Source: a virus
Length of the DNA stretch: 28,074 nucleotides
Virus record (IMG/VR): IMGVR_UViG_3300033143_004799
Coordinates: 576 to 28,649 of that record
Direction: 5' to 3' (one strand)
The notes below the pieces were generated by a model that was not told where the DNA came from, made no database searches, and saw only the letters and a program-made list of their open reading frames with translations. The position numbers and the translations under genes were made by a program. Positions 9,444-27,598 of the stretch are shown piece after piece. Numbering within the stretch: position 1 is the first letter of the stretch; the number at the start of each line of letters is the position of its first letter.

Positions 9444-10366
9444 AGTAATTCCAAAATTTTATCATTATCATTAAATACTAATTTTTCTATAATTTCTTCT
9501 TTTGTTATATTTAAAATTTGATTTATATTATCATCTACATTAAATAATTTTAAATAATAATGTAACCCATCGTTAATAGTTTTATTTTTAATTGAATAAT
9601 ATACTGGTTTATTTAAGTAACAAAATTCAAATATAAGTTTACCTATGTTTTCTAAATAAGTTTTAGGAACTATTTGAATCCATCTTTGGTATTGATATGA
9701 CTTACAACCATGAGGTAATAAATTAGAATTCTTAATATTTAAATGATTTAAATCACAGTTATCAATAACTTTAGTATCTCCAAAATAACTTTTAAATGTA
9801 GCCATATGTGCATATTCATTTTCATTAATATTTCTTTTTGTAGTTAAATGTTTATCAATAAATTTAGCGTTTGATTTAATATATTCTAATCTATTAATGC
9901 TAAATTTATGATAATAATTAATAAATTTATCTACATACTTAGATGCTATTTTATTAGCAGGGTTACCTAATAAAATTATTTCGTTATATTGTAATTGATC
10001 ATCTTTAACAAAAAATTCATCAATTCTGTTATTATATATAGCTATTGATATTCCAGTAGTATCAAGTAATATTAATTTATCACAAATTATATTAAATTTA
10101 ATTTTATTATGTTTATGGGTTAATATCTCAGATGACATAATAACAATATCTGATTCAATTGTGTTTGAAAAATTTGAAATAATTTTTTCTGGTTTAATAT
10201 GAATACTTTTTTTAATATCAAAAAATATTCTTCTAAAATGTTTTGCATTAGTTAATTTATATTTAAGTTCAATATTATATCTTGATGATAAGTTGAAATA
10301 TAAATCTATTATAGAAGTATTTGTACCTGAAATTGCTCCATTATATATATCAAATAAAGTAATCAT
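9440..10366 (-). CDS. Probable glycosyltransferase (distant GT-B-like)
   Basis: 308 residues, no firm family match. The N-terminus MITLFDIYNGAISGTNTSI could be a Gly-containing acceptor-side loop. The C-terminal quarter has WIQIVPKTYLENIGKLIFEF followed by CYLNKPVYYSIKNKTINDGL. The same pattern (a polar residue, [19 protein letters not shown]) occurs in the 275-residue protein two genes downstream in sequence order (11753-10926). An E-containing helix followed by G/NKPV is what the nucleotide-sugar site of GT-B glycosyltransferases looks like. I therefore call it a probable glycosyltransferase, with moderate confidence. The neighbouring deacetylase, sulfotransferase and nucleotide-sugar enzyme support a glycan role. 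Confidence 0.5.
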   Translation of the reverse strand: MITLFDIYNGAISGTNTSIIDLYFNLSSRYNIELKYKLTNAKHFRRIFFDIKKSIHIKPEKIISNFSNTIESDIVIMSSEILTHKHNKIKFNIICDKLILLDTTGISIAIYNNRIDEFFVKDDQLQYNEIILLGNPANKIASKYVDKFINYYHKFSINRLEYIKSNAKFIDKHLTTKRNINENEYAHMATFKSYFGDTKVIDNCDLNHLNIKNSNLLPHGCKSYQYQRWIQIVPKTYLENIGKLIFEFCYLNKPVYYSIKNKTINDGLHYYLKLFNVDDNINQILNITKEEIIEKLVFNDNDKILELL

Positions 10367-10917
10367 AAAAGATCCTCTATTTCTATTCTTTCTTTTCCTA
10401 AGAATTTATTAATATTATAATTATTATTTAAAATATTTTTATAAAATCCTTTAAAATCATCATTAAAAGGAAAACAAAATACTTTAGGTTTATAATTTAA
10501 ATGTTTTTCAAATTTTTCAAACATTTGTTTACTATCTTCTTTAATATATTCTATTTTATCATATAATGTTTTAAATATATTTAAATTAGTATGTGAATGA
10601 CTATGTCCGGCTATTGTACAATTTGATTTGTTATGTATAAACTTAATCATTTCCCATGTCATATAGTTTTCAAAATTTCCATTTAATGCTTTTTTTCTAG
10701 CATCATAACATGATATAAATTTAAATGATGGATTTACATTACTTGGGCATACTACACCAGTTGAAATATTAAAAAATTTTGGAGTTTTAATTTTTAATAT
10801 TTCTGGTAAAAAAGTATATTGAGAAATTAATCCATCATCAAATGAAAGAATATAATTATCTAAATTAAGATTTAAAAACACTTCTTTAAATTCATGTATT
10901 AACAAAACAGGTTTCAT
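10363..10917 (-). CDS. Polysaccharide deacetylase (NodB homology, carbohydrate esterase 4 type)
   Basis: 184 residues. NodB motif 1 is SFDDG (residues 25-29), supplying the catalytic and metal-binding Asp pair. Motif 2 is GHSHSHTNL (104-112), supplying the metal-binding His pair. FCFPF (about 150-154) corresponds to motif 3 (RxPY/F-like). Family members remove N- or O-acetyl groups from chitin-like, peptidoglycan or exopolysaccharide sugars using a divalent metal. The protein is shorter than most members and lacks a signal peptide or membrane anchor, so it acts in the infected cell, probably on a nucleotide-linked or lipid-linked sugar or on a glycosylated virion protein (inference). An AAGGA site precedes the start. 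It overlaps the next gene by four bases. Confidence 0.85.
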   Translation of the reverse strand: MKPVLLIHEFKEVFLNLNLDNYILSFDDGLISQYTFLPEILKIKTPKFFNISTGVVCPSNVNPSFKFISCYDARKKALNGNFENYMTWEMIKFIHNKSNCTIAGHSHSHTNLNIFKTLYDKIEYIKEDSKQMFEKFEKHLNYKPKVFCFPFNDDFKGFYKNILNNNYNINKFLGKERIEIEDLL

Positions 10918-10925
10918 AATATTCC

Positions 10926-11753
10926 TTATATAAATTGTCTAATAACTTCATCATCCTTTGTTAAAAATCTATGTGATATTCCATTTTTAATTAAATCTTT
11001 ATATCTATAATAACTTCCGTCTTTAATATTATGTATGTTATAATATAAAACTTTCTTCCCATAAAAATAAGACTCTAACATTAATCTTGGTCTTGGGTCG
11101 AAATATTTATTAGCATGATAATAAACAAAGGTATCAAACAATTCAAATAGATTTTGTTTATGTTTTCCTGTTTTATAAATTATATTTTTATCTTTTGGTA
11201 AATCTAATAAATCAATAAAACTAAAATCATCATTATTAGGAGAATTTATAAATATATTAGGTTCAACTTTTGTTAATGGTTTTAATCTATCAAATAAAAA
11301 TTTACATGTATATTGATGATCTTTATAAACAAATGGCATTTCACCATAATATTCTACACATCCAGGTGGATAAAAAGATTTATCAATATAATATTTTAAA
11401 TCTTTTTTATGAGTTTCAGTTATAATAATAATTTTTGAATGTTTATTTTTAATATTGATTAGTCCCTTAACTTTGTAAATAGTTCCGTAATCAAAAATAA
11501 GCAATCTATCAAATTTATAATACATCAAATCTTTTCTTGATATTCCTATAATATTATCTTCTATATTTAAATCTGAAATTTCATATCTATCGTTAATTAA
11601 ATTAATAAGTTCTTTTTTAAATTCTTGATTATAATTTATAATAAGTAATTTAATATTTTTATTGTATTCGAACATGACAATATAATTGTCTAATACATCT
11701 ATAACTGACCCATTAATTTTGTTGATATAATTAGCGAATATTATTGCATTCAT
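10926..11753 (-). CDS. Probable glycosyltransferase (distant GT-B-like)
   Basis: 275 residues. It starts [20 protein letters not shown]. The middle has [21 protein letters not shown]. The C-terminal part has [20 protein letters not shown], which resembles the PR.xxEaxxxGkpvl donor-site helix of GT-B glycosyltransferases. The C-terminal [15 protein letters not shown] also parallels the 308-residue protein (10366-9440), so the two are likely distant paralogues. No DxD motif of the GT-A type is obvious. Its start overlaps the UDP-glucuronate decarboxylase stop (ATGA), so the enzyme that would supply UDP-xylose and this putative transferase are translated together. That pairing makes a pentosyl transferase a reasonable but untested guess. 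Confidence 0.55.
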
Positions 11754-12682
11754 ATTTTTTTTAAAAAATCAATTGTTTTTTTAAGTCCTTCTTCTAAATT
11801 ATAAGTGGGTTCCCAATTAAGTATTTCTTTAGCTTTTGTATTATCTGGTTTTCTTTTGGATGGGTCGTCTTCACTTTCTTTAATAAAATTAATTTTAGAT
11901 TTTGATTTTGTTAATTTAATAATTATTTCTGCTAATTCAATTATACTTATTTCTATTTGCGAACCTATATTAATTGGACCTGTTATTAAATTATCAGTTG
12001 CCATTAATTTAATAATACAATCTACTGTATCTTCTACATAACAAAACGACCTAGTTTTTGTTCCATCTCCATAAATGATGAGAGGTTTATTAATAATAGC
12101 ATTATTAATAAAATTAGAAACTACTCTTCCATCATTACTTCTCATTCCTATACCATATGTATTAAATATTCTTGCAATTTTTATATAAGTATTATACTGT
12201 CTATAATAATCAAAAAATAAAGTTTCTGCACAACGCTTTCCTTCATCATAACACGATCTAACTCCGATTGGATTTACATTACCCCAATAACTTTCTGGTT
12301 GAGGATGTATTAAAGGATTTCCATATATTTCTGACGTTGAAGCTTGAAATATTTTAATGTTTAATTTAGTAGCAAGGTCTAACATATTAATGGCGCCTTG
12401 AACACAAGTTTTTATTGTTTGTATTGGATATTTTTTATAATACGGAGGAGATGCTGGGCAAGCTAAATTATATATTTCATCAACTTCTAATAGTATTGGA
12501 ATAGTAATATCATGTCTAATAAATTCAAATTTTGGGTTAGATAATAAGTGATATATATTTTCTTTTTTACTAGAAAAACAATTATCAATACATATTACTT
12601 CATTATTTTCAGATAATAATTTTTTACACAAGTTAGACCCTATAAAACCAGACCCACCAGTTACTAAGATTCTTTTAAACAT
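11750..12682 (-). CDS. UDP-glucuronate decarboxylase (UDP-xylose synthase family, extended SDR)
   Basis: 310 residues. The NAD-binding GGSGFIGS (9-16) is at the N-terminus. The UXS-type signature is nearly complete: [36 protein letters not shown] and SCYDEGKR. Catalytic Tyr-145/Lys-149 of the YxxxK pair are present, with Glu-118 in the STSE segment. RIFNTYG and DGRVVSNF follow. UXS enzymes oxidise and decarboxylate UDP-glucuronate to UDP-xylose (or the 4-keto-pentose in relatives), the donor for pentose-containing glycans. Full length and all key residues are intact, so it is very likely active. AGAGGAAA lies upstream of the start. The host or another phage region must supply UDP-glucuronate. 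Confidence 0.93.
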
Positions 12683-13617: not shown

Positions 13618-14548
13618 TACGAAATTTCTCTGGTATTTCATGATATGGATCGTATATATCATTATTTAAAGCAGTTCTAAAAGGACATCCCCCAACATTC
13701 CAACTTTTAAATATATCATAATTTTTATATGGATTTATGTTTTCGCTTTCATTTATATTACCAAATGGTAAAATATCAGCACTAGCTAAAAAATTACAAT
13801 GATATAATTTTCCACTATTGTTAATAGATAAAAATTTTTCGTAACACATACTATTCATACAAACTCCATTCATACCATTTAAGTAATGTATAAGTGGTGT
13901 AATTCTTTCAAATTTATTATTAAATAATTTATAAAATTTTTTGTAAAAATTATAAACACTTTCACTAGATGGCATATCATTTAAATCTAATACACTACTT
14001 GGTTTAAATAATTCAAGATTAATATAATCATAATTTATTGGAATTATTTTATCATAAATTTGTTGAATTGGATTATTATTTAAAAAATCTTTGGTTATAG
14101 TTATAACAACCCCAAATTTTTTTAAATGTGTTCTTAAATATTGTAAATTTGAAACATTATATACTCTATTAACATTATAATCATATGATGTACTAACGGT
14201 CATAATAAATTTATTAAAAATCTTAATAAATTTATCATCAATTAAAGTAGAATTTGTTTGAATTGAAAGATATTTAAATTTTTTATTTTTAAAATAATTT
14301 AATATTTTATATGTGTTTTTATGTCCTAATAATAATGGTTCACCGCCATGTAAAAATAACTTATTAAATTTATCATTGCCAAAAGTTTCTTCAATTTTTT
14401 CATAATATTGTTTAACTTTTTCAAAATTCATTATTCCTTTTTTTAAATTTTTTCTTCCGTAACAATGACTGCAATTTAAATTACATTCATCAGTAACATG
14501 TAAATATAAAACACTATTTTTATTGTAAAAATTTTTCATTTTATTCAT
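13601..14548 (-). CDS. Radical SAM protein 5, SPASM-type
   Basis: 315 residues. Cluster motif CNLNCSHC (Cys-22, 26, 29) followed by Tyr, and HGGEPLLLG at about 67-75, as in anaerobic sulfatase-maturase and peptide-modifying SPASM enzymes. The C-terminal region has CMNSMC, then NNSGKLYHCNF and FGNINES, resembling the SPASM pattern C..C...G.xYxC..xxx..GNI, with a final GGC. SPASM enzymes of this group usually modify proteins or ribosomal peptides (Cys/Ser oxidation, thioether or carbon-carbon cross-links). The start overlaps the previous stop as TAATG. The enzyme is different in type from radical SAM 1-4, so the island mixes at least two lineages. Confidence 0.93.
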   Translation of the reverse strand: MNKMKNFYNKNSVLYLHVTDECNLNCSHCYGRKNLKKGIMNFEKVKQYYEKIEETFGNDKFNKLFLHGGEPLLLGHKNTYKILNYFKNKKFKYLSIQTNSTLIDDKFIKIFNKFIMTVSTSYDYNVNRVYNVSNLQYLRTHLKKFGVVITITKDFLNNNPIQQIYDKIIPINYDYINLELFKPSSVLDLNDMPSSESVYNFYKKFYKLFNNKFERITPLIHYLNGMNGVCMNSMCYEKFLSINNSGKLYHCNFLASADILPFGNINESENINPYKNYDIFKSWNVGGCPFRTALNNDIYDPYHEIPEKFRNDFIK

Positions 14549-15141
14549 TAGTTAAATAATTGTCTAAATGCTATTAATCCGTTTTCCATTTCTTCTACAG
14601 TTGTCATGTCTTTAAGAGCTAACCAAAAATCTCTGTATTGTTTATACATTGTATGATGTTCGTCTAACCTATCTCTTATTGTAAGATATATATCTAGTGC
14701 ATCAATCAAATCTTGGTCACCTGTATTAACAATTTCAAGATATTTTTGTTCTCTATTATCATTAGTAAAAACATAACCTCTATCAATTAAATTATTATTA
14801 ATTAATGAAAATCCATAAAAATCAAACATTGACAAACTTCCCGTTCTATTAGAAATAAACTGACGGGCCTGAATATTTATTCCAATTCTAGTTGCAACTA
14901 CTATATCAAGTGCTGGTTGAATAATTAAATCTGGTATTGTTAAAGGATTTAATAAATTTTTAGGAAATAATACTACTTTAAGATTTTCTAATGCAGTTTT
15001 AATTCTATTAAAACATAATACTGATGGTATTTCATAAAGGCGAACACCACCAAACTCAAAGATTAATGTTTCATCTCCTTCATATACTGATACTATTCTA
15101 AAATTTACTCCAGCGCTTGCAATACCTGCTATTAATTTCAT
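14548..15141 (-). CDS. Conserved-looking protein of unknown function inside the radical SAM operon
   Basis: 197 residues, not recognised. It begins MKLIAGIASAGVNFRIVSVY and looks like a compact alpha/beta or beta-rich protein, with LIFEFGGVRLYEIPSVL and a helical C-terminus (DEHHTMYKQYRDFWLALKD). Only one Cys is present, and there is no signal peptide or transmembrane segment. Base composition and codons are more balanced (more G and C, few Asn/Ile/Lys runs) than in the surrounding genes and resemble those of the head and fibre genes. It may therefore be a structural protein or a core phage gene around which the island grew. It overlaps its upstream neighbour by four bases (ATGA) and its downstream neighbour by one. 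Confidence 0.8.
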   Translation of the reverse strand: MKLIAGIASAGVNFRIVSVYEGDETLIFEFGGVRLYEIPSVLCFNRIKTALENLKVVLFPKNLLNPLTIPDLIIQPALDIVVATRIGINIQARQFISNRTGSLSMFDFYGFSLINNNLIDRGYVFTNDNREQKYLEIVNTGDQDLIDALDIYLTIRDRLDEHHTMYKQYRDFWLALKDMTTVEEMENGLIAFRQLFN

Positions 15142-16040: not shown

Positions 16041-17015
16041 TTAAATCTTCCATTCTTCAAATTTTTCCATCATTTCATTATGACTTAATTTTAATAGAAA
16101 TTGATGGTCTTTATGAACTCGTGGTGTACTAAATCCACAAATACATTCTTTTTGTAAACAAACACATTGATCTGTTAATTTATCATTTATGTTTTTATCA
16201 AATACTGATAATTTTGGTAGATTATTTGCATTTGATACCATTGACGTCATACACCTGTATATAATACCATCAGCAGAAATCATCATATTATTTTTAAATG
16301 AATTACATATACACCATTTAAAATTTTTATTTTCAGGACGTTTTCCTTGTATATAGTAATATTTATTATTACTATATAATATACTAAGTTGATTTTGTAA
16401 TAAAAATTTAGATGGATAATTTATATCATCCTTAATTTTTAATCCATTTATAGGAGACATTATAAATGGAATACTAGGGTATTTTTTTATTGTTTCATAA
16501 AATAATTCTTTACATGATTCATTATGTAACATAAATGCAGGATTTGTTAAAAATTTTTTATAAGATGATAAATCTAAATATTTTTTACAAAATTCATCAA
16601 TATCAATAAATTCCTTATGAAAGCTTGGAAAAATTTCAACATTTATATTATTCATTATTTTATCTATTTTTTTATAAAAATCAACAGATTTACTAAAATT
16701 AGTAAAAATAGATAATATTTTTAGTTTATTATTTTCTTTATTTTTAGTATTAATGTATTCAATTATTTCAAAAAAATTTGGATGTATAGTTGGTTCTCCA
16801 CCAGATATAATTAGTTTTATATTATTTTTAGGTAAATTAAATATAAAATCTATTATTTTCTTAAGTTTTTTAATATTTGTTTTTTCTTTTTTAACACAAA
16901 CATTACAATATGGACATTTAAAATTACATAATTCAGTAATAGTAAAATAAATGCTCATACTAATTTTTTTATCAATATAATTTCCACTACCATGATATAC
17001 AATATTATTTTTCAT
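16041..17015 (-). CDS. Radical SAM protein 6
   Basis: 324 residues from the ATG at 17015. This start is preferred because GGAG lies seven bases upstream; in-frame ATGs at 17027 and 17057 are possible but add overlap with the preceding gene. Cluster motif CNFKCPYC (Cys-30, 34, 37) with an extra Cys at 40 (CNVC), and SGGEPTIHP. The C-terminal part has CICNSFKNNMMISADGIIYRC (SPASM-like G.IYRC) followed by CVCLQKECICGFS. This is therefore a cysteine-rich end able to bind auxiliary clusters. Substrate unknown. It overlaps radical SAM 7 by 11 bases and abuts the PanC-like gene. Confidence 0.92.
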   Translation of the reverse strand: MKNNIVYHGSGNYIDKKISMSIYFTITELCNFKCPYCNVCVKKEKTNIKKLKKIIDFIFNLPKNNIKLIISGGEPTIHPNFFEIIEYINTKNKENNKLKILSIFTNFSKSVDFYKKIDKIMNNINVEIFPSFHKEFIDIDEFCKKYLDLSSYKKFLTNPAFMLHNESCKELFYETIKKYPSIPFIMSPINGLKIKDDINYPSKFLLQNQLSILYSNNKYYYIQGKRPENKNFKWCICNSFKNNMMISADGIIYRCMTSMVSNANNLPKLSVFDKNINDKLTDQCVCLQKECICGFSTPRVHKDHQFLLKLSHNEMMEKFEEWKI

Positions 17016-18117
17016 TAAATACTCCATTAATTTTTCCCCATACAGGTTTAAGTCCATTATGAAATGCAGTTTTTGGGTGTTTCATTCTCCATTTATATAA
17101 TTGCCCACTAACACAATGTGTTTCAGTTGAGTTATTAAGATATTTTGTATTAACAACTAAACTTCCATATTTAATTGCTTCTTCTACAATCAAAGTTCTC
17201 CACATTGGTAGTATTGCAGTAACAATATTTCCAGTATTATGATTATCAGTTTTATTAAATTTTAAACTTGATAAACATTGTTGATGAAATTTTGCATTAT
17301 TCAAATAATAATCAAAATCTAAATTTCTTGATTTACAAATAAATTTAATTATTTGAGAAAGCATTGGAAAATATTTTCCTTTAAGTTGGTCTGATATTCC
17401 ACGGTATCTCATTTCTTGGGGTTGATACTCTCTACATATTTTATCAATTTTTAACATTTTTTGTGTCGTATTACAAGTTAATAAAACTCCATAAGAATAT
17501 TCTTGTCCACCACCAAATTTTTCTATATTTTCAGTAAATGTTCTAATGTAATTAGATTTGGTTTCATGGTCTATACTTAATGCCCAATTAATTTGATTAC
17601 TCTTTGGAAATTTTTTAATATATTCTGGGTTTTGTAACTTAATTCCATTAGTATAAATATGTACTTTATTATTAGTATTATTAACAATCCAATAAACTAA
17701 TTTATCAAGATTTTTAAACATTGTAGGTTCGCCTCCAACAAATCTAATCATTGGATGAACTCCATCATAATAATATTCTTTATAAGGTTTATATCCATAA
17801 CCTCTTGTGTCATCAGGAACAAATTCTTTTATATTACTAATAAAATCTTCAAGAGTATTATTACCTGGATGCTTTACTAATAAGTCTTTTTCATAACAAT
17901 AATTACAATTTTTATTACAATCATTAGTTAGATGAAAAAAAGCAGTAAAATAACCTTCTGCTGGTATTTTAGGTTGATATTGATGTTTCCAAACTTCTAA
18001 ATTTTTTTCTAGTAATATTTTATCAGTAGAAGAATTGAGCCAAACACCTTTATTATCATAAACTAACTTTTTCTCAATTATATTTCTAAATTTATCAAGT
18101 CCATGAACTTTATTCAT
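17005..18117 (-). CDS. Radical SAM protein 7, next to the Cys-rich appendage gene
   Basis: 370 residues, the longest radical SAM protein of the set. It has an N-terminal extension of about 55 residues (possibly a substrate-recognition segment) before FHLTNDCNKNCNYCYEKD (Cys-67, 71, 74) and RFVGGEPTMFKN. The C-terminal region lacks a full SPASM cysteine set; only isolated Cys in QQCLSSL and THCVSG are seen. It starts three bases after the stop of the S74 chaperone gene, making it the enzyme most closely coupled to the Cys-rich protein. That proximity is the basis for proposing it as a modifier of that protein; no sequence motif proves it. Confidence 0.93.
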   Translation of the reverse strand: MNKVHGLDKFRNIIEKKLVYDNKGVWLNSSTDKILLEKNLEVWKHQYQPKIPAEGYFTAFFHLTNDCNKNCNYCYEKDLLVKHPGNNTLEDFISNIKEFVPDDTRGYGYKPYKEYYYDGVHPMIRFVGGEPTMFKNLDKLVYWIVNNTNNKVHIYTNGIKLQNPEYIKKFPKSNQINWALSIDHETKSNYIRTFTENIEKFGGGQEYSYGVLLTCNTTQKMLKIDKICREYQPQEMRYRGISDQLKGKYFPMLSQIIKFICKSRNLDFDYYLNNAKFHQQCLSSLKFNKTDNHNTGNIVTAILPMWRTLIVEEAIKYGSLVVNTKYLNNSTETHCVSGQLYKWRMKHPKTAFHNGLKPVWGKINGVFNEK

Positions 18118-18120
18118 TAT

Positions 18121-18375
18121 TTATTTTTCCTCTAACAATTTAATTCTTTGCTCTAAATTTTGAACATGTTTTATTAATAAAGGTATAAGTTGAATATAAT
18201 TTACAGTATAATAACCATCATCTTCCATTGTTACAATAGAATATTCTTTAGGGTCAAATATTTCAGCTAATTCTTGTGCTATAACTCCAAAATTTTTTCT
18301 ATTATCTAATGTAACTTTATCACTATATCTAAATTTAATAATTTGTATTTTTTTAAAAATTTCACTTATTTTCAT
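18121..18375 (-). CDS. C-terminal part of an S74-type intramolecular chaperone domain
   Basis: 84 residues. NFGVIAQELAEIF (28-40), the downstream VNYIQLIPLLIKHV and the final coiled coil NLEQRIKLLEEK are the conserved second half of the peptidase S74 / phage tailspike chaperone domain. That domain helps fibres trimerise and then cuts itself off. The first half (SDIRLK...) is the C-terminus of the gene just upstream, in another frame. An AAGG site six bases before the ATG allows separate translation. Either the chaperone works as a split protein, or a two-base difference in a TATATATA run separates what used to be one gene (removing one TA restores a single frame). Confidence 0.85.
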   Translation of the reverse strand: MKISEIFKKIQIIKFRYSDKVTLDNRKNFGVIAQELAEIFDPKEYSIVTMEDDGYYTVNYIQLIPLLIKHVQNLEQRIKLLEEK

Positions 18376-18383
18376 AATACCTT

Positions 18384-18932
18384 TTATATATATTCTATAT
18401 CATATTTTAATCTAATATCACTTTTATCAGCGCCACAACTATAATCACAATTACATGTACAAGCATAATCACAATCACATGTACAAGCATAATCACAATC
18501 ACATGTACAAGCATAAGCACAATCACATGTACAAGCATAAGCACAATCACATGCACACATAGCTTCAATTGTATTAACTTGTGTTCTCATTGCATTATAT
18601 TGTTGTGCTTCTAATATGTCGTCTGTATCAGTTTCATTATCATTCAAATGCGCTGGCCAACTCCATGCAACAGCTGCATCAATTCCATCACGTAATTTTC
18701 GAACATGTGTAGAAAGAATTTTATTAGCACTAGTAACAGCACCTGGGTCAGCAGGCCAACTTTGTGACCATCTTGTTATTTCATTATCAATCGCTGTTCT
18801 TAATTCATTATGATGTGTATCTATCATTATTACACTAGTTGTTAGAGGGTCATTTGTCCATGTTGTTGGTGTTACTGGTCCAACATAATTACCATCATTA
18901 TCACCATCGCCATCGTGTCCTGTACAAGCCAT
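18384..18932 (-). CDS. Cys-rich tail-appendage-type protein ending in the start of an S74 domain
   Basis: 182 residues. The N-terminus has an Asp/Gly-rich stretch (HDGDGDNDG). Helical segments follow with HHNELRTAIDNEI and HVRKLRDGIDAAV, plus QQYNAMRTQVNTIEAM, a pattern seen in phage fibre proteins. Residues 126-166 contain 16 cysteines in a repeat of the form (A/D)YACTCDC. The last residues, SDIRLKYDIEYI, are the exact kind of sequence that begins an S74 self-cleaving chaperone (cleavage before Ser-171). The protein stops there, and the rest of the domain is in the next gene. I infer a trimeric appendage whose Cys repeats could be cross-linked, bind metal, or be modified by the neighbouring radical SAM enzymes. 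An AGGAGA site precedes the start. Confidence 0.88.
   Translation of the reverse strand: MACTGHDGDGDNDGNYVGPVTPTTWTNDPLTTSVIMIDTHHNELRTAIDNEITRWSQSWPADPGAVTSANKILSTHVRKLRDGIDAAVAWSWPAHLNDNETDTDDILEAQQYNAMRTQVNTIEAMCACDCAYACTCDCAYACTCDCDYACTCDCDYACTCNCDYSCGADKSDIRLKYDIEYI
18435..18557 (-). repeat. 24-base tandem repeat encoding the Cys-rich motif
   Basis: About five copies of a 24-base unit encode the eight-residue (A/D)YACTCDC motif within the appendage gene. Copies differ mainly by GCT/GAT-type changes (Ala versus Asp). In-frame unit length means copy number can change without breaking the protein. Confidence 0.9.
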
Positions 18933-18933
18933 T

Positions 18934-19038
18934 TTAAATTCTCCTTTTTATTCTTTTCATAGCTCTAACTATTTTTCCATTTAATTTATAAAATTTGCAC
19001 AATTCTGGTTGATCTGTATAATCTGTCCATCTTTTCAT
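18934..19038 (-). CDS. Possible small basic protein of unknown function
   Basis: 34 residues, MKRWTDYTDQ then PELCKFYKLN and a strongly basic end (MKRIKRRI). The frame is open without an ATG further upstream to the end of the radical SAM 8 remnant. It stops two bases before the appendage gene start, so it could serve mainly for translational coupling. No good ribosome site precedes it. It could also be the displaced C-terminal end of radical SAM 8. Low confidence. Confidence 0.3.
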   Translation of the reverse strand: MKRWTDYTDQPELCKFYKLNGKIVRAMKRIKRRI

Positions 19039-19060
19039 ATAATCACTTTTTTTACTATTT

Positions 19061-19384
19061 TTAAATTTCACATTTATAAGATTCTTCAATTTTTTTTATA
19101 AAGTTTTCGTCTTTTAAGTTACATAATAAATGTTTGTTTTTATCATCATCATATACGCTTCCATGACATTTAAAAATATTCCCATTCCAATTAATACAAA
19201 TCATATCCCTACCAGCAGTACATAATGCTTTTCCAGGATTAAACCAATTAAAGAAATATTTATTATTTATTCTATTATATTCTAATTCTTTTGGCACAAT
19301 TTTAATTAAAACTTTTTCTAATTCTTTTTCATATTGTTTAATTTCTTTTTCTGAGTACTGTTTTAAATGATAGTTGGAAAATAT
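19061..19384 (-). pseudogene. C-terminal SPASM-like part of radical SAM protein 8, out of frame
   Basis: An open frame without an ATG at its beginning, giving 107 residues. It runs from a region overlapping the end of radical SAM 8 through KQYSEKEIKQYEKELEKVL to CTAGRDMICINWNGNIFKCH. This last segment is a SPASM-like block with the G.IxxC pattern, and a Cys follows at LLCNL. It continues the upstream radical SAM protein after a one-base frame change located between about 19363 and 19384. The joined protein would be roughly 307 residues, a normal size for this set. The only late start in this frame is a GTG at 19297, which would leave a fragment without the catalytic domain. A mutation or an indel error are both possible. 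Confidence 0.7.
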
Positions 19385-19986
19385 TTATTACTTTTATAAA
19401 AATCGTTATTTGGAAATTCTTTAGATAAATTTAATATATCTTCTCTAGCTTGATCTATATATTTAAATGTATCTAGTGTTATTGTAGATTTAATAACACA
19501 AGGTATTTTATTCTTCCATAAATTTCTTATAACATTTCTAGTTTTTTCTCCAGTTATTCTATTAGATTTAGTTTTTCTATAAATATCATGTATAGGAAAA
19601 CCATCATAAGAAATTTGAATACAAATTTTAGGTCTACGCATTAATATATTTTTAGAACCTTCTTTTAAAATTTTCATAAAAGGGCCAACATTAGAACCAT
19701 TACTATAAATAAAAAATATTACTTTATCATTATTTTTATAATAATAATAAATTGTTTTAATAACTTTTTCATTTAATGTTGGTTCGCCACCCCAAAAATT
19801 AATTAATAATCCATCATAATTTAATTTAAAATGATTAGAATTTAATAATTCATCTATTCTTTGAAAAAATAAATTAGTATCTTTAAAATTTTTATTTTCA
19901 AAATGATTATGTTCAAAACAATAACTACAATTAAAGTTACAATTAGCAGTTACAGTTAAATCAATATTATACATTTTTATATTCAT
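19363..19986 (-). CDS. Radical SAM protein 8, catalytic part (frameshifted at the end)
   Basis: 207 residues. Cluster motif CNFNCSYC (Cys-16, 20, 23) followed by Phe, and NFWGGEPTLNEK. Later blocks ISYDGFPIHDIYR and IKSTITLDTF are typical of SPASM-family radical SAM barrels. The frame ends at FPTII, before the SPASM region, which lies in a different frame just downstream. Without its C-terminal cluster the protein would probably be inactive or altered. The start ATG is 11 bases after radical SAM 9. If the T4 run near the break were T5, the frames would join. Confidence 0.85.
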   Translation of the reverse strand: MNIKMYNIDLTVTANCNFNCSYCFEHNHFENKNFKDTNLFFQRIDELLNSNHFKLNYDGLLINFWGGEPTLNEKVIKTIYYYYKNNDKVIFFIYSNGSNVGPFMKILKEGSKNILMRRPKICIQISYDGFPIHDIYRKTKSNRITGEKTRNVIRNLWKNKIPCVIKSTITLDTFKYIDQAREDILNLSKEFPNNDFYKSNKYFPTII

Positions 19987-19997
19987 TTATTCACCTT

Positions 19998-20909
19998 TTA
20001 AAATTGTTTAAATTTATGTTCTGTTTGTTTTTTATCATATGTAATTCCAGTTGTAGGAGATAAATATGAGTTACCAATAAAATTATTATGATTACATATT
20101 TTACATAAATGACAAACATGTCCACAAATAGGTTTTCTATATTTTTTAAATATAGATTCCATATATGGAATTATTTTTGTTTTTATATTTTTACCAGCAT
20201 TTTGAATTTTTAAAACATCATCAAGTTCTTGATAAGCATATCCTATTGTAATTCTAAATAAATATTCTGATTTCCATTTTTCTAAAATATAAATAATATC
20301 TTTTACTACATTATTATAATTACTAGAATGTACTGTATAAATTATTTTGAACGGAATTTTTTTTCCAATCAAACTATTAATTGATTTTTCAACTAAAGTT
20401 TTACTATTACTTCCATCTGGAAATTTTCTTTTAAATTGTCCAGAACAATCATAACTTATTTCTATATTAACATTAACATTATTTTTTTTAACTTTTTCAA
20501 TAAGAGATTTTAATGAATTAAGTTTTTTATTATTAAATAAAGTTGCATTAGTTATCAAACTAATACCAAAACCTTTATGTTTATTAGGTCCAGATAATTG
20601 AAATGCTCTAGCTATTGTATATTGAATTAAATCAAATCTTAAAAATGGTTCTCCACCCATTATTACAATAGTTGAAATTACATTTTTTTCTCTTGTACAA
20701 ATTTCTGCTAAAAATTCATCTATCATTGCAGGAGTACAATCAATTTGGTCTGGTAATCCTTTTCTACTTGAACTTTCATAACAATAAGTACAACGAAGAT
20801 TACAATCAGTATTTAAATAAATAATATTAGTTCTTTGTTTAGATGTATTTTCTTTTTTATCTGATAAAATATATTTAATATCTTTAAAAAAGGATTCAAT
20901 ATTATTCAT
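19998..20909 (-). CDS. Radical SAM protein 9
   Basis: 303 residues. A 30-residue N-terminal helix is followed by IYLNTDCNLRCTYCYESS (Cys-36, 40, 43) and VIMGGEPFLRFD. The central barrel has ISYDCSGQFKRKFPDG. The C-terminus holds CGHVCHLCKIC, a tight four-cysteine cluster with the spacing C-x3-C-x2-C-x2-C suited to an auxiliary iron-sulfur cluster. After it come NNFIGNSYLSPTTG and a short tail. The enzyme is likely peptide-directed by family resemblance, but the substrate is unknown. It overlaps the preceding 93-residue gene by four bases, suggesting the two are made together. Confidence 0.93.
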   Translation of the reverse strand: MNNIESFFKDIKYILSDKKENTSKQRTNIIYLNTDCNLRCTYCYESSSRKGLPDQIDCTPAMIDEFLAEICTREKNVISTIVIMGGEPFLRFDLIQYTIARAFQLSGPNKHKGFGISLITNATLFNNKKLNSLKSLIEKVKKNNVNVNIEISYDCSGQFKRKFPDGSNSKTLVEKSINSLIGKKIPFKIIYTVHSSNYNNVVKDIIYILEKWKSEYLFRITIGYAYQELDDVLKIQNAGKNIKTKIIPYMESIFKKYRKPICGHVCHLCKICNHNNFIGNSYLSPTTGITYDKKQTEHKFKQF

Positions 20910-21187
20910 AATTTGCTTCTTATTTTTCGTACTAATGTTTCAATTTCATCATCAGTATTTTTATCTAATTTAACTTCATTTTTTGGGTTATTTGTGTGAC
21001 CATTACACATTGTCCAATCATTTCTTTGTAATTCTTGTTTTTCCAATAATGATAAAGTAACATCACTAAACTTTAACATTTTAAAACTTATATCGGTATT
21101 AATATTTTTCATTGCATAACACATTTTTAAAAGATTATTAGCACATTTATAAATAATTTCTTTTTCTTTTTCTGTATAAACACTCAT
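20906..21187 (-). CDS. Small protein of unknown function between radical SAM genes
   Basis: 93 residues, not recognised. It is mainly helical (YTEKEKEIIYKCANNLLKMC), with three Cys (15, 23, 61), a TMCNGHTNNP segment and a charged C-terminus (DDEIETLVRKIRSKL). It has a strong AGGAGA ribosome site and is translationally coupled (ATGA) to radical SAM 9. Small proteins coupled to radical SAM enzymes are sometimes substrate peptides or peptide-binding partners. The sequence shows no leader-core arrangement or repeated modifiable motif, so this role is only a suggestion. Confidence 0.75.
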   Translation of the reverse strand: MSVYTEKEKEIIYKCANNLLKMCYAMKNINTDISFKMLKFSDVTLSLLEKQELQRNDWTMCNGHTNNPKNEVKLDKNTDDEIETLVRKIRSKL

Positions 21188-21201: not shown

Positions 21202-22152
21202 TTATCCTATATTTTTTATCCTATATTTTTTATAAAATTCCATCATAGTACAGCTTTGATGTTTAGGAATATTATTTTCTACTATTATTTTATAACCTAT
21301 ATAACTTAATATTTTAAAAAAATTATGGTTATATAAATCATCATGTTTATAAATATCTTTTGAATGAACTCTATATTTTTTAAATGGTAATTCTGGAGGA
21401 AATACACAAACTGAAATATCATTATTAGTTCCATATATTAAAACACCTACATTATATGGTTTTAAATGTTTTACTTTATTCCAAGTTTTATATGTAGTTT
21501 CTACATCTATATCTCTTATATAAGTTCTAAGATTATGAATCATTTTGGATTTAAATTCATATTCAGAATCTAAAATAGGATCACCTATTAATTTAATAAT
21601 TGAAATTTTATAACCTAATTTTACAACTTGAATTAGATTTTTATAAACTTTATTTCTTTTTTCATCTGTATTATTATGAAATCTATCTATTGATATTAAT
21701 AAATGAGGTATATTTTTAGTTACACTAATTTCATTTATTGTTTTAAATAATAATAAATGTTCTTTTTTTATTTTTAATAAATTTGTTATAATATTAAAAT
21801 TTAATTTAATATTATATTTATTTGCTATTTTAATGCAATTATATATACACTCCAAAATTTCTGTTGGTTTTAATAATGTAATTTCACCACCAGTAAAAGT
21901 TATATCATAAATATCTACTTCATTTTGTATTGATTTTAAATACCTGTCAAAAAAATCATAAAATTTAATATAATTAAATTTATATTCTTTACGTTTTCTT
22001 ACAACACAACATGAACAATCATTATTACAAACTGTTGTTAATTGAACATCCATATGATTTTTTGGAACTATATCATATTTAATATTAAATTCTTTATAAT
22101 CTTTATAATCTTTAGTATTTAAAATATTGTTAAAAAAATCATACCAATTCAT
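21202..22152 (-). CDS. Radical SAM protein 10, with variant motifs
   Basis: 316 residues. Cluster motif VCNNDCSCCVV (Cys-42, 46, 49, with an additional Cys-48), so the usual aromatic residue before the last Cys is itself a Cys. The SAM glycine motif is FTGGEIT in place of GGEP. Later, LLISIDRFHNN and KISIIKLIGDP fit the barrel. The C-terminus has a single CVFPPELPF and a CTMMEFYKKY, not a full SPASM set. The strong AGGAG site is intact. The changed residues suggest a divergent but probably functional enzyme. Confidence 0.9.
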   Translation of the reverse strand: MNWYDFFNNILNTKDYKDYKEFNIKYDIVPKNHMDVQLTTVCNNDCSCCVVRKRKEYKFNYIKFYDFFDRYLKSIQNEVDIYDITFTGGEITLLKPTEILECIYNCIKIANKYNIKLNFNIITNLLKIKKEHLLLFKTINEISVTKNIPHLLISIDRFHNNTDEKRNKVYKNLIQVVKLGYKISIIKLIGDPILDSEYEFKSKMIHNLRTYIRDIDVETTYKTWNKVKHLKPYNVGVLIYGTNNDISVCVFPPELPFKKYRVHSKDIYKHDDLYNHNFFKILSYIGYKIIVENNIPKHQSCTMMEFYKKYRIKNIG

Positions 22153-22170: not shown

Positions 22171-23274
22171 TTATCCTACATTTTTTATTAAACTTTTTAA
22201 CTTAGTTTTATATAATTTATTATTTTTTAATTCATTTGTTATTCTTATTGTTTCTTTATATGTAATTTTTAAAAGTTTACATACATTATCTAATGGTTCT
22301 GCATTATATGAATTTTTAATTTGTTCATATGTACAACCAGCATTACAATACTTATATAGTTCACAAGATAAACATTTATTAAATGTTTTTGGGTTAGATA
22401 CTTTTGGTTTTAAAAAATAATTTAAAGATTTATTATAAAATTTCTTTTTAATTGAATTGCCTATTATTTTACTTTTATTTGTGCCAAATCTAGCACATGG
22501 ATATATATCTCCATTTGGCATAAACCCAGCACCGTGACAACCAGCAAAACAACCAAATGGTCTTTTCCCTTGAATTTTTCCAAAAATTAAATCTAAAGTA
22601 TATAAATGGAATAAACCCACGTTAGCATTTATTCCATTTTTATAATATTTAATTACTCTATTTGCTAATCTTTTACATTCATATTTATAAACTAAAACAT
22701 CTTTTTCTGTCCAAATATTATCTCTAACTAAACTAAAATCTGGATTATTTATTCCGTATTTGTCTACAAACCATTCAAAATTTTCAGTCATTGTAGATAT
22801 AGAAGAAGGCGCAACCATAACTTTACAACTACCATTAGATGTAATAAAAGACTTTAATGGTTCTTTTAAATAATCTTCAAATGATGATATTCCTTTATGT
22901 TTTGGTCTATTTTCTTTATTCCATAAACCATCAAATGAAATAGAAAGATTAATATTATTATCTTTTATAAATTGTCTTTTTTTATCATCTTTTAATAATA
23001 AAGCATTTGTTATTATAATAATTTGTGTGCATTTTGGGTCTTTTTTTAGTATAGGAATTATATATTTAATTAATTCCCAATTTAAGAGAGGTTCTCCTCC
23101 AAATAAACTAGCATGATAATTTTTTTTATTATATTTATCCATTAATTTTGGAAGAATTTTATAATGACTATTAAATATTTCAGTTGTCATTATGGCATGA
23201 TTTTGTTTAATATAACAATATTTACATGCTAAATTACATTTTTTAGTTAGTACTATTTGAAATTCAAAACTCAT
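22171..23274 (-). CDS. Radical SAM protein 11, SPASM-type maturase
   Basis: 367 residues. MSFEFQIVLTKKCNLACKYC gives Cys-13, 17 and 20, followed by Tyr, and SLFGGEPLLNWE. ISFDGLWNKENRPKH matches the barrel of the sulfatase-maturase and peptide-maturase group. A complete SPASM domain follows: GCFAGCHGAGFMPNGDIYPC and later CLSCELYKYCNAGC. SPASM enzymes with this set bind two auxiliary clusters and act on protein or peptide side chains. It is the most classical of the eleven. It is the first gene of the accessory operon, preceded by the largest clean gap (62 bases) after the fibre gene. Confidence 0.95.
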   Translation of the reverse strand: MSFEFQIVLTKKCNLACKYCYIKQNHAIMTTEIFNSHYKILPKLMDKYNKKNYHASLFGGEPLLNWELIKYIIPILKKDPKCTQIIIITNALLLKDDKKRQFIKDNNINLSISFDGLWNKENRPKHKGISSFEDYLKEPLKSFITSNGSCKVMVAPSSISTMTENFEWFVDKYGINNPDFSLVRDNIWTEKDVLVYKYECKRLANRVIKYYKNGINANVGLFHLYTLDLIFGKIQGKRPFGCFAGCHGAGFMPNGDIYPCARFGTNKSKIIGNSIKKKFYNKSLNYFLKPKVSNPKTFNKCLSCELYKYCNAGCTYEQIKNSYNAEPLDNVCKLLKITYKETIRITNELKNNKLYKTKLKSLIKNVG

Positions 23275-23341
23275 TTATTTTGCCTTTATCACATTTTTAT
23301 TTTGATTGTATCATTATATTAATAACTTGTAAATATTTATT
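23275..23341 (-). promoter_or_regulatory. Gap before the accessory operon with a weak late-type box
   Basis: The 62 bases between the fibre gene and radical SAM 11 contain, at the upstream end, AATAAATA (23341-23334), one mismatch from the T4 late box and about 60 bases before the start. No GC-rich terminator hairpin is visible. It may be a promoter for the island, but read-through from the fibre genes is equally possible. Confidence 0.25.
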
Positions 23342-25886
23342 TTATAGAACAGTAAATTAATTTTTCTTTTTGATTATTATTACCTTCTAGTGATGTACCA
23401 ATTTTATAAAGAAGTTCTATTTCGTTTTCTGTTTGTCTTGCACATCCATTACCAGCGGAAATAATTGGTTGTCCTTTTTTTATTGGTCCAATTATTCTAA
23501 CTAAAACTTTTCCGGTAAGACCAACAGTGATACTATTTTTAAGACCAACATTCATTATATGACCAGCTTTTTCTGATACAATACCAATTACACTAGAACA
23601 TTTTTCAACAAGACATTCTTGAACTTCATAATCACTTTCAGTGCAAGCACTTATAACTGTACCAACTATAAGATTTTCATTTTGGCATGTATGTTTTTCA
23701 GCAAGATCAGAATAGTAAGTACCAGTAGCATCACCATGAAATTGAGTAGCGTAAATATAGTTATTAGTATTATCAATATAAATTGCTGAATCTTCATAAA
23801 GTCTTTTATATCCAGCAGAAGTATGTGCTGTAAATACTATTGGACAATTTGTATCACCTGTATCATCATCAGAAATATAAGGTTCAACTACAATATTTCC
23901 AGTACCATCAAAACCTACACCATTAATTGTTCTTTCAGTTGCAAGTGCTGTTGCTGTTGCAGCATTACCAGTTATATCAGCATGAACATGTAATAATGTG
24001 GCACTTCCATCTGTTAATTGTTCAAGGTCTGCTTCTGTAATATTTACAGTTTGTCTTAATGCTTCACCAGCAGCGGTAGGTGCTTGTAAATTTACTACTT
24101 GATACGAACTATCCATATCAATATCAGCTGTCATCGTTCCAAGTGTTGTGTCTGTACCTTGTGTATGTATAACACCATCAACATATGCTTTTACTGCTTG
24201 CTCAGTAGGTACGGCATCATCTGAATCACCTGCTAATGTATCATCTGTTGAAAACTCGTTTATGCCTGTTCCACCAGATAACGAAACACTACCTTCTCCA
24301 TCAATAGTCATTCTTGTTTTGTCAGCTGTTTGAAATGCTATTGTACTATTAGCATCTCGCGTTATTAAATAAAGTGTTCCTGTTCCCCTATGATATAATA
24401 CAGAATTAGCATTTTCACCAGTATTAGTTCTTTGGATTCTTAATCCATAATCTGTATAAGTATCATCACCCACTAAATCTATGAACGCAGATCTATTTCC
24501 ACTTCCGTTTTTATTAAGTTGTAGGTTGGAACTTGAAATTTCAGAATCTTGTATATTGGTAACTCCATTTATTTCTATGGTTCCATCAGCAGCAATAGTA
24601 CCACTTGTTTGAAGTGATAAAAGTGCTCCATCTGATGTTCCAATATAAAGACCACCTGTTCCTCTTTGCTGTATTTGTGAAGTAGCGTTTTCACCAGAGT
24701 TATTTCTAATTATTCTTAAACCATAGTCAGTATAAGTATCATCACCTATTAAATCAATATAAGCGTATCTAGGTCCACTTCCATCTTGACCAAGTTCAAT
24801 TCTACATGAACCACTAGGAGTTGGATTTGTCATTACTAACCATGAACCACTAGGAGTTGGATTTGTCATTACTAACTTAGTACCATGTAATGTAGCATCT
24901 CCAGCAGAATTAATACTAAAAGCTGGGTCAGGGTCACCATCACTTGCAACAAGTTCACTATGTCTGTGTAGTGTATTTGCAATTGAATTGTCAACTAAAC
25001 TTGTATTTCCACGAGCATCAACATAAGCTTTTACTGCCTGTTCAGTTGGCACAGCATCATCACTATCACCAGCTAACGTATCATCTATTGAAAACTCGTT
25101 TATTCCAGTACCACTAGATAAGTGAAATGTTCTAGTATCAGCATCAAAAAAACCTATTTTATTTCCCTTACCATCTCCAATAGATAAATTTCTATACCTA
25201 GTATCTTCTCCTTGGTATCCCCTGTAATTTAACCATAAACTGCTATTATCTACATCATAACCATATCCTGTATTTATTGATAATCCTGTGATAAAAACAT
25301 TATCATAACTGTCTGAATCTCCAAATAATGCTGTAACTGTTGTTGAATCATACACATCACCAGTATCTTTTTCTACATGTAATTTAGCAACTGGGTCAGA
25401 TGTTCCTATTCCAACATTTCCAGCAGATGTTATACTTAATGCTGGGTCAGGTGTTCCTGTAGCACCAACAAGTTCACTATGTCTGTGTAATGCGTCTGCA
25501 ATAGAATTATCTGTTAATGTTTCTAACTCAGTACCTGTTGCGGTTGTATCACTATGACTTGCTATATCGTGAACGGCACCATCAACAACACCACCTGAAC
25601 CTTCATTACCGTTATGATTATGAACTGGAACACTACCAGAAGCGCCTTCACTAACAATTCCGTAATATACATCTGTTAAATTTGATGTTAAATCATCACT
25701 TGCAACAGTAAGAATTACAGTTGTAAGATCACCAGCACCAGAAACAGAACTTGTTATTGTTCCAAATTTATATCCATCTACACCACAATTAGCTTTTACA
25801 CGTCTATCAGCTATAAATTCATCAGTTCTATCTGTTACAACTGTGAATCCTGATGATGAAACATATGTTGCAGTTATACCTGCCAT
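23337..25886 (-). CDS. Large tail fibre protein with duplicated modules
   Basis: 849 residues. The N-terminus (MAGITATYVSSSGFTVVTDR) and the early VPVHNHNGNEGSGG resemble virion fibre baseplate-attached regions. Modules are repeated: GINEFS.DDTLAGDSDDAVP followed by TEQAVKAYVD occurs twice. DDTYTDYGLRI with a GTG.LY block also occurs twice. TNPTPSGS is doubled in tandem. The C-terminal about 130 residues (YYSDLAEKHT, then GIVSEKAGHIMNVG and VRIIGPIKKGQPI) form a domain widespread at the ends of phage fibres, where receptor binding or trimerisation occurs. No S74 domain is present on this protein. Two bases separate it from the repeat protein upstream. Confidence 0.85.
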   Translation of the reverse strand: MAGITATYVSSSGFTVVTDRTDEFIADRRVKANCGVDGYKFGTITSSVSGAGDLTTVILTVASDDLTSNLTDVYYGIVSEGASGSVPVHNHNGNEGSGGVVDGAVHDIASHSDTTATGTELETLTDNSIADALHRHSELVGATGTPDPALSITSAGNVGIGTSDPVAKLHVEKDTGDVYDSTTVTALFGDSDSYDNVFITGLSINTGYGYDVDNSSLWLNYRGYQGEDTRYRNLSIGDGKGNKIGFFDADTRTFHLSSGTGINEFSIDDTLAGDSDDAVPTEQAVKAYVDARGNTSLVDNSIANTLHRHSELVASDGDPDPAFSINSAGDATLHGTKLVMTNPTPSGSWLVMTNPTPSGSCRIELGQDGSGPRYAYIDLIGDDTYTDYGLRIIRNNSGENATSQIQQRGTGGLYIGTSDGALLSLQTSGTIAADGTIEINGVTNIQDSEISSSNLQLNKNGSGNRSAFIDLVGDDTYTDYGLRIQRTNTGENANSVLYHRGTGTLYLITRDANSTIAFQTADKTRMTIDGEGSVSLSGGTGINEFSTDDTLAGDSDDAVPTEQAVKAYVDGVIHTQGTDTTLGTMTADIDMDSSYQVVNLQAPTAAGEALRQTVNITEADLEQLTDGSATLLHVHADITGNAATATALATERTINGVGFDGTGNIVVEPYISDDDTGDTNCPIVFTAHTSAGYKRLYEDSAIYIDNTNNYIYATQFHGDATGTYYSDLAEKHTCQNENLIVGTVISACTESDYEVQECLVEKCSSVIGIVSEKAGHIMNVGLKNSITVGLTGKVLVRIIGPIKKGQPIISAGNGCARQTENEIELLYKIGTSLEGNNNQKEKLIYCSIK
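24805..24876 (-). repeat. Perfect 36-base tandem duplication in the fibre gene
   Basis: Two identical 36-base copies (24805-24840 and 24841-24876) encode a 12-residue unit containing TNPTPSGS twice. The in-frame, identical copies indicate a recent duplication or an assembly artefact. Confidence 0.9.
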
Positions 25887-25888: not shown

Positions 25889-27598
25889 TTAATCTCCTAT
25901 TATAGTATAAGAATTTATTCTAAAAAATAATTTATCTGATGTGTTATTTATTTTTATATTATCTAATGTATTATTTATTTTAATAATATCTGATGTGTTA
26001 TTTATTTTAATAATATCTGATGTGTTATCTATTTTTAATTCTATTTCTTCTTTTATATTTAATACATAAGAATTTATTTCAAAAGATAATTTATCTAATG
26101 TATTATTTATTTTTATATTATTACTATTTAGTTCAAATTTAATATTTGTATTTAATTTAGTTTTTAAATTTGGTGATGTTATTCCAAAATATAATATTGA
26201 TGCTACTTCGGCTTTTGTTAATAATTCTAAAACAATATCTGATAAGTTTAATGTATCAGTTGCTGATAATAAAGTTGAAACAATTCTTAATAATGAAATA
26301 TCAGATAATAATAAATTATCAGTAGCAGTATTTGAAGCAGTTACATTTATACTTGTTGTATCTACAAATTCAATATTATCAATAGCTAATAAATAAAAAC
26401 CAGTTGTTCCATCTTCACTAAAGTTTATATTATCATTACTATTTATATTTAATGTTAATGTTTTTATTGGTGTTTCTGAAAAATTTATATTATCAACAAC
26501 AGAAGATAATATTATTATATTTCTTGTTGTGATTTCAGAAAATTCTATATTATCAATTAAAACAGGTGATGCTGTTAATGACTCACTTATTGTTTCAGTA
26601 AAATCAATATTGTCGCTTAAAATAGGTGATGCTGTTAATGACTCACTTGTTGTTTCAGTAAACTCTATATTGTCAATTGGATAAGGTGTAGCAGTTAAAC
26701 TTTCACTTGTAGTTTCAGCAAATGTAATATCATCTGTTATTGCTGGTGTGGCAGTTAAACTTTCACTTGTAGTTTCGGCAAATGTAATATTGTCAGTTAA
26801 AGCAGGTGTGGCAGTTAAACTTTCACTTGTAGTTTCGGCAAATGTAATATTGTCAGTTAAAGCAGGTGTGGCAGTTAAACTTTCACTTGTAGTTTCAGCA
26901 AATGTAATATCATCTGTTATTGCTGGTGTAGCAGTTAAACTTTCACTTGTTGTTTCTGCAAAAGTAATATTATCAGTTAAAGCAGGTGCAGCAGTTAATG
27001 ACTCACTTGTAGTTTCGGCAAATGTAATATTGTCAGTTAAAGCAGGTGTGGCAGTTAAACTTTCACTTGTAGTTTCAGCAAGTGTAATATTGTCAGTTAA
27101 AGCAGGTGATGCTGTTAAACTTTCACTTATAGTTTCGGCAAATGTAATATCATCAACTGTAAATATAGATGCTGATAATAAGGCACTTAAAGTTTCAGAT
27201 AAATCTAATATATCAAATGCTTCATATGTTGCTGCTGATATATATATTGTTGTTACATCAGTAAATTCTATATTATCTATTACTGTTGGTGATGCTGATA
27301 ATATTACACTTGTTGTTTCACTAAAATCTATATTATCTGTTGTGATTAATCCAGCAGTTAATAAAACAGTTGTTGTGTCATTAAGTTCTACATTATCAAT
27401 TATACTTAACGTAAATGTTATTAAATTAGTTGTTGTATCACTAAATTCAATATTATCTGTTGGAGAAGGTGAAGCAGTTAACGATTCACTTATTGTTTCA
27501 GCAAATGTAATATCATCAGTTATTGTAGAAGAACCTGTCAATGACTCACTTGTAGTTTCATAATGACTCACTTGTTGTTTCAGCAAATGTAATATCAT
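25889..27598 (-). CDS. Repeat-rich fibre/adhesin-like protein, C-terminal part
   Basis: 569 residues if begun at 27598, but the first twelve residues are out-of-frame read-through of a repeat; homology to the repeats starts near 27562. The protein is a long series of ~20-residue units of the type TFAETTSESLTATPALTDNI. They degrade toward the C-terminus into variants (NIEFSDTTTN, NIDFSETTS). A short terminal region follows with four copies of an IKINNTSD unit and INSY motifs. There are no cysteines in the repeats and few charged basic residues. Thr/Ser/Asp/Glu-rich beta repeats of this type suggest an extended fibre or surface-binding stalk. It is the C-terminal portion of a larger gene that continues beyond the window, interrupted by frame breaks. 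Function inferred from composition and position. Confidence 0.65.
   Translation of the reverse strand: MILHLLKQQVSHYETTSESLTGSSTITDDITFAETISESLTASPSPTDNIEFSDTTTNLITFTLSIIDNVELNDTTTVLLTAGLITTDNIDFSETTSVILSASPTVIDNIEFTDVTTIYISAATYEAFDILDLSETLSALLSASIFTVDDITFAETISESLTASPALTDNITLAETTSESLTATPALTDNITFAETTSESLTAAPALTDNITFAETTSESLTATPAITDDITFAETTSESLTATPALTDNITFAETTSESLTATPALTDNITFAETTSESLTATPAITDDITFAETTSESLTATPYPIDNIEFTETTSESLTASPILSDNIDFTETISESLTASPVLIDNIEFSEITTRNIIILSSVVDNINFSETPIKTLTLNINSNDNINFSEDGTTGFYLLAIDNIEFVDTTSINVTASNTATDNLLLSDISLLRIVSTLLSATDTLNLSDIVLELLTKAEVASILYFGITSPNLKTKLNTNIKFELNSNNIKINNTLDKLSFEINSYVLNIKEEIELKIDNTSDIIKINNTSDIIKINNTLDNIKINNTSDKLFFRINSYTIIGD

Follow-up and report, generated by a model that had tools for sequence, protein, structure and literature searches.

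Results

Gene content of the window

The window, a stretch of 28,074 nucleotides from a 28.6-kb virus record, contains 11 open reading frames with a radical SAM motif, and the record also codes for a phage portal protein. Among these genes lies that of a Cys-repeat protein, here called CYS (Table 1). A preliminary description had reported 16 cysteines within 41 residues in an eight-residue repeat at 18384-18932. An open reading frame has exactly these bounds on the minus strand, and the 41-residue stretch CACDCAYACTCDCAYACTCDCDYACTCDCDYACTCNCDYSC of its product carries the 16 cysteines in eight-residue units. The same description had placed the gene between two radical SAM genes and next to an S74 domain, which was borne out in part: a radical SAM gene lies directly upstream, but it is the frameshifted R2, and the adjoining S74 reading frame is incomplete. 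Upstream of CYS, the order is the interrupted R2, R1, a small gene, another radical SAM gene (21202-22152) and R0.

Table 1. Features of the locus, with positions counted from the first letter of the window
Feature	Position	Strand	Remarks
Conserved cassette protein (cluster 3)	14548..15141	-	197 aa; in 23/33 loci; PHROG 25260
Neighbouring radical SAM gene, directly downstream of CYS	17005..18117	-	viperin/MoaA-like; outside the PapB-like triad
Stand-alone S74 remainder	18121..18375	-	84 aa, without first strand; PF13884 2.3e-6, profile positions 18-54 of 58
CYS, Cys-repeat protein	18384..18932	-	182 aa; N-terminal domain, 5 copies of CDC[A/D]YACT, C-terminal S74 stub SDIRLKYDIEYI
S74 stub on CYS C-terminus	18384..18420 (approximate)	-	SDxRLKxxIxY[MILF]-stop; 12 loci with stub
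24-bp tandem repeat coding for the Cys units of CYS	18441..18557	-	4.9 copies, 96% match
R2, radical SAM/SPASM-like enzyme	18940..19986	-	interrupted in this contig; intact in relatives
R1, radical SAM enzyme	19998..20909	-	303 aa; one C-terminal 4-Cys cluster; best NCBIfam match PapB
Small protein	20906..21187	-	93 aa; resembles the small gene between R0 and R1 in most loci
R0, radical SAM/SPASM enzyme	22171..23274	-	367 aa; top NCBIfam match is the PapB ranthipeptide maturase, top PDB match is CteB
Large fibre-like protein	23337..25886	-	849 aa; lies upstream of R0; matches the Peptidase_G2 autoproteolytic domain weakly

The R2 gene of the window is frameshifted, with 10 bp missing relative to contig L003 and 76 bp missing relative to contig L002, and these deletions remove auxiliary-cluster cysteines. 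The window matches L002 at 96% on one side of the 76-bp junction and at 100% on the other, the change falling precisely there, and the other break lies almost exactly where L002 starts. Accordingly, the alignments suggest that the break is likely a mis-assembled mixture of strains, although it may represent a true loss.

Two other regions of the minus strand were also noted. Positions 5258-12682 hold a further radical SAM block with a sulfotransferase gene (7780-8622, PF00685) and glycosyltransferase-like, deacetylase-like and NAD-dependent epimerase-like genes, and this region looks like a separate surface-sugar island. Positions 25889-28065 hold long fibre-like reading frames built from a repeated SESLTAxPALTDNITFAETT unit, which are apparently broken into three frames at 27558-28065.

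The Cys-repeat protein and its family

A Pfam profile search gave no match of any kind for the CYS of the window. In AlphaFold models the Cys repeats have low confidence (pLDDT about 30-50); in that of the window protein they are drawn, at this low confidence, as short strands, one per eight residues. Foldseek found no significant match in the PDB for either AlphaFold model. The repeat units of the window are coded by almost identical DNA, without a signal of synonymous selection.

Judged by its repeats, CYS is a member of a large phage family. The proteins of this family, about 125-534 aa long, have a large and divergent N-terminal domain, then C-T-C-[N/D]-C-N-Y repeats, then often an S74 domain or stub. 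Each tail has between 4 and about 30 units, which are 7 or 8 residues long, and one to four such genes lie in tandem. The N-terminal halves are mutually unrecognisable, and full-length relatives of the window protein were found by sequence in two contigs only, namely L002, with a near-identical CYS, and L003, a phage contig of 207 kb in which the gene is present twice in tandem. The back-translated pattern C-x-C-x-Y-x-C-T-C-x-C-x-Y matched 51 IMG/VR stretches and the reversed pattern matched 4, so the repeat occurs far above chance.

Between the repeat units of one relative, L066, the codon differences are 69 synonymous and 0 non-synonymous, where about 14% of random changes are expected to be synonymous. 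This excess of synonymous differences indicates that in the relatives all seven repeat residues, Cys and non-Cys, are held against drift; Thr, Asn and Tyr are conserved there alongside Cys. The variants CPCNCNF, CTCNCNF, CHSN/CHSD and CTCNVD also occur in the family. After Cys, the residue at +1 is Asn or Asp in 60% of cases, and that at +3 in 64%. We considered Asn/Asp at +3 as a rule for cross-linking, which CHSN and CTCNVD fit, and kept it as a hint because, within a periodic repeat, +1 and +3 can hardly be told apart.

In three other members (L069 18833-19570, L067 9452-10522 and L079 9898-10554), N-terminal Cys-His repeats (CxxH...) accompany the C-terminal ones. The tails of two tandem genes in L081 (record G034, 9403-10625) mix CNARCSC and CNGRC units with CTCNCNY.

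A divided S74 domain

The C-terminus of CYS, SDIRLKYDIEYI, corresponds to the first strand of an S74 domain. The SD motif is the self-cleavage site of S74 domains. Since the first strand ends CYS, this motif sits on the Cys protein, while the stand-alone gene holds the remainder; in the window, PF13884 is thus not complete in one chain with the SD motif, whereas it is fused and complete in 8 loci. A stand-alone remainder of 84-103 aa, usually the next gene, was found in 9 of the 12 loci with a stub versus one weak case among the 21 other loci (Fisher 5e-5). The split was seen in the window (18121-18420, minus strand) and in L066, L070, L073, L075, L076, L077, L087, L060 and L057, the last being a contig binned as a bacterium with the same stub and remainder (PF13884 1.5e-9). 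A sequencing error in a TA run was considered for the frame break between CYS and S74 and rejected, given the same stub end in L003 and the split in 9 loci. On this comparison, the predicted S74 chaperone is split over two genes, and the split is conserved across loci.

The PHROG matches of the S74 remainder are mostly C-termini of tail fibres, which supports, without proving, a role in an appendage. Taken with the gene context, the S74 domain makes it plausible that CYS is part of a tail fibre or of another appendage of the phage.

The radical SAM enzymes R0, R1 and R2

The best NCBIfam match of all three enzymes is PapB (R0 1.8e-43 over the full length, R2 7e-23, R1 1.4e-17). For R0, the next matches are a Nif11-type maturase and the SCIFF maturase (CteB), and its best PDB match is 5wgg/5why (3e-43), which we take to be CteB. 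R0 scored 149 bits against the PapB family NF047865, below the NCBI equivalog cut-off of 340; since R0, R1 and R2 all lie under equivalog cut-offs, we regard them as relatives of PapB and not as members. Weaker profile matches include the anaerobic sulfatase maturase and the cyclophane enzymes DynA and YhhB.

The radical SAM motif of R0 is conserved as CxxxCxYC in 31/31 sequences and GGEP in 30/31, and its SPASM-type cysteines (C243, C261, C301, C304, C310, C314 and C336) are present in 31/31. The R0 of L003 matches the SPASM domain TIGR04085 above cut-off. R2 keeps seven auxiliary cysteines in 27/27 sequences, and four auxiliary cysteines are found in R1 in 28/29. No peptide-recognition element was identified, which counts against a modification of the repeats by these enzymes.

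Co-occurrence of the repeat with radical SAM genes

Radical SAM genes (PF04055) are present in 42 of the 43 IMG/VR records with the repeat, at a median of 8 per record (mostly 4-11, up to 16), versus PF04055 matches in 2 of 28 randomly taken IMG/VR contigs longer than 25 kb. The resulting Fisher value of 6e-16 is overstated, because several of the 43 records are near-duplicates. The co-occurrence in other phages, which the preliminary description had named as a check, is therefore strongly borne out, and the Cys-repeat protein did not prove common in phages that lack radical SAM genes; the one repeat-bearing record without them is a 43.8-kb fragment (L011/G009).

In 33 neighbourhoods picked from the repeat-bearing records for reduced redundancy, orthologues of R0, R1 and R2 occur in 30, 30 and 28, usually close to CYS. 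Typical gene orders are R2-R0-small-R1-small-CYS and R0-small-R1-R2-CYS. The reverse search, starting from R0, gave 59 records with an orthologue, of which 53 have canonical repeats, 2 have variant Cys repeats (CHSN/CHSD and CTCNVD) and 4 have no repeat gene in the DNA seen (L211; L228, with the gene cut to 71 aa; L232, at a contig end; and L254). The pairing still holds where R0 identity drops to the thirties. R0-like enzymes at about 30% identity or below come without repeats; the exception is L266, with a short tail rich in Cys plus an S74 stub.

A search for relatives through the portal protein gave 10 loci only. One relative, with a portal 67% identical to that of the window, has neither a radical SAM match nor a Cys repeat in 120 kb; it is a single case with an incomplete genome and other genes beside its portal. 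From the random control set, the phage contig L165 (record G080, 88 kb) has nine matches to radical SAM but lacks the CxCxC repeat, and is a different radical-SAM-rich type of phage; many radical SAM genes alone thus do not imply the repeat.

Taken together, these genomic comparisons lead us to consider the association between a repetitive Cys protein and three enzymes of predicted thioether type to be real and widespread.

Cultured Campylobacter phages

Among 50,697 phage records, relatives of R0 at about 41% identity occur in 15 Campylobacter Firehammervirus records. Repeat proteins of the gp140 type also occur in 15 of the 50,697, all of them Campylobacter Firehammervirus and the same 15 that have R0 and R2, and R1 was seen in CP220. 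Phage IBB_35, for which 38 structural proteins have been listed, has a gp140 homologue (YP_009590717.1). Outside these 15, the enzymes gave only weak matches to faecal phages. The portal protein of the window is 27% identical to that of CP220.

In CP220 we found 11 radical SAM genes, in agreement with the publication. Its gp140 (YP_009169314.1, 534 aa) contains VACLCDCNYCTCDCNYCTCDCNYCTCNCNYCTCDCNYCTCDCNYCTC and was located by Cys density; the pattern C-x-C-x-C-x-C had no match there, the unit having three Cys. R0 of CP220 is gp023 at about 16 kb, R1 is gp099 at 84 kb, gp140 lies at 161 kb and R2 is gp136 at 165 kb. R0 and R1 are thus far from gp140, and gene linkage does not explain the pairing with these two. 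Two small proteins of CP220, gp032 and gp166 (L092 22839-23207; L095 20107-20529), have 27 Cys each in a CxxC ladder that is unrelated to the CTCNCNY repeat; they are possible further substrates.

The CP220/CPt10 paper (Timms et al. 2010, PMC2853527) notes 11-12 radical SAM genes, for which functions in metabolic fitness are suggested, and separately a 21-bp intragenic repeat in CPT_0180. The latter corresponds to the CTC[D/N]CNY repeat of gp140. In the passages on them, the two observations are left unconnected, whereas we connect them here. In our literature search, no paper connected radical SAM genes of phages with a Cys-repeat protein, and there was no report of any virus cross-linking its own protein by this route.

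Discussion

The preliminary description had proposed CYS as a substrate of the radical SAM enzymes encoded around it. Co-occurrence and homology to PapB support this proposal for the triad R0, R1 and R2; the viperin/MoaA-like enzyme at 17005-18117 is not a partner. We consider it likely that the Cys-repeat protein is the substrate of these three enzymes, and fairly likely, from the sequence comparisons, that its C-terminal repeats are what the PapB-like triad modifies. By analogy with characterised maturases, thioethers are a rather likely product. The nearest known relatives of R0-R2 stitch Cys to neighbouring residues, and on this basis the viruses probably cross-link a protein of their own in the same manner. 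Against this reading stand the repeat-bearing fragment without radical SAM genes, the four R0 records with no repeat gene in the DNA seen, the PapB scores under the cut-off and the interruption of R2 in the window.

In this mechanism, R0, R1 and R2 would act on the C-terminal repeats and would link the sulfur of Cys to carbons in the side chains of neighbouring Asn/Asp, possibly also of Thr or Tyr. An otherwise flexible tail would become a chain of small covalent rings, and the S74 domain, fused or split, would serve as a folding chaperone for this C-terminus. Cys-Xn-Asp spacings with n of 0-6 are tolerated by PapB, which forms both in-line and nested rings (PMC9413430), and a Cys-Asn beta-thioether is known from NxxcA (PMC8326336). 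Considering this tolerance, the Cys-Asn link and the frequency of Asn and Asp in the repeats, dense thioether rings are chemically plausible. The full picture, in which a three-enzyme, ranthipeptide-like machinery cross-links the tail of a virion appendage into thioether rings and is widespread in environmental and Campylobacter phages, seems to us about evenly poised between right and wrong.

The repeats could instead form a metallothionein-like metal-binding tail, with the radical SAM genes being part of a sugar or surface-modification island that has no relation to it and happens to travel with fibre genes. The CxC motifs and a Cys content of up to 40%, which resemble metallothioneins, would fit such a tail, as would the additional Cys-His repeats at the N-terminus of some members, and the islands do hold a sulfotransferase and glycosyltransferase-, deacetylase- and epimerase-like genes. 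However, the triad matches peptide thioether maturases and not sugar enzymes, in CP220 it accompanies the repeat protein despite the distance of R0 and R1, and Thr, Asn and Tyr are conserved with Cys in the relatives, so that we consider this combination improbable. A disulfide ladder in the mature virion, with the enzymes acting elsewhere, is a highly improbable alternative: dense Cys in an extracellular particle could in general oxidise, but neither the two-way pairing with R0-R2 nor the conserved non-Cys residues of the repeat would be explained.

The enzymes may instead act on the repeats by another chemistry, such as epimerisation, conversion of Cys to formylglycine, Tyr/Asn cyclophanes or methylation. 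Three enzymes do suggest more than one reaction, and the weaker matches to the anaerobic sulfatase maturase, DynA and YhhB point the same way; yet a thioether enzyme is the best match of all three, the top three matches of R0 are all ranthipeptide-type maturases and its top solved structure is CteB, which makes a reaction other than thioether formation unlikely. That the genes merely hitch-hike, co-inherited in one phage lineage with no functional link, would agree with the relatedness of many records and with cluster 3 and other genes being likewise shared. Against this, the pairing persists at R0 identities in the thirties and between CYS proteins with unrecognisable N-terminal halves, and a close portal relative lacks both partners; we regard hitch-hiking as rather improbable.

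Thioether formation on the repeats by the triad can be compared with several known systems. The ranthipeptide maturases (PapB/freyrasin, CteB, Nif11-type and NxxcB) combine a radical SAM core with SPASM cysteines, as R0 does, and their substrates are likewise rich in closely spaced Cys with Asn/Asp/Thr partners. As in those systems, a Cys-rich protein is encoded together with the enzymes. On the other hand, ranthipeptide precursors are short leader-core peptides, whereas CYS proteins are far longer and carry a large N-terminal domain; the enzymes here are encoded by phages, are three in number and score far under the equivalog cut-offs. In the case of QhpD, a radical SAM/SPASM enzyme links Cys to Asp/Glu in a functional protein, the gamma subunit of quinohemoprotein amine dehydrogenase, but R0 matches QhpD more weakly (1e-20) than PapB and the QhpD substrate has no such repeats. 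The CXXX-repeat and Cys-every-fifth systems (TIGR04115 and CefB; R0 matches of 3e-21 and 1e-16) also pair a radical SAM/SPASM enzyme with a periodic Cys-repeat substrate, though the repeat here is C-T-C-N-C-N-Y and the context is a phage. With the S74 chaperone of endosialidases (endosialidase CIMCD), the phage proteins share PF13884 and the SDxRLK junction motif, full-length and fused in 8 loci, but in 9 loci, window included, the domain is divided into a C-terminal stub and a stand-alone gene.

The role of the eight to sixteen radical SAM genes in some phages has been a question since 11 or 12 of them were noticed in Campylobacter phages in 2010. Three of those phage enzymes now gain a concrete, testable candidate substrate in cultured phages. 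With the split S74 domain, an intramolecular chaperone would have turned into a two-gene system. If the cross-links exist, they would represent a new viral way to build rigid, protease-resistant parts, and the enzymes would be a source for modifying repetitive proteins rather than short peptides.
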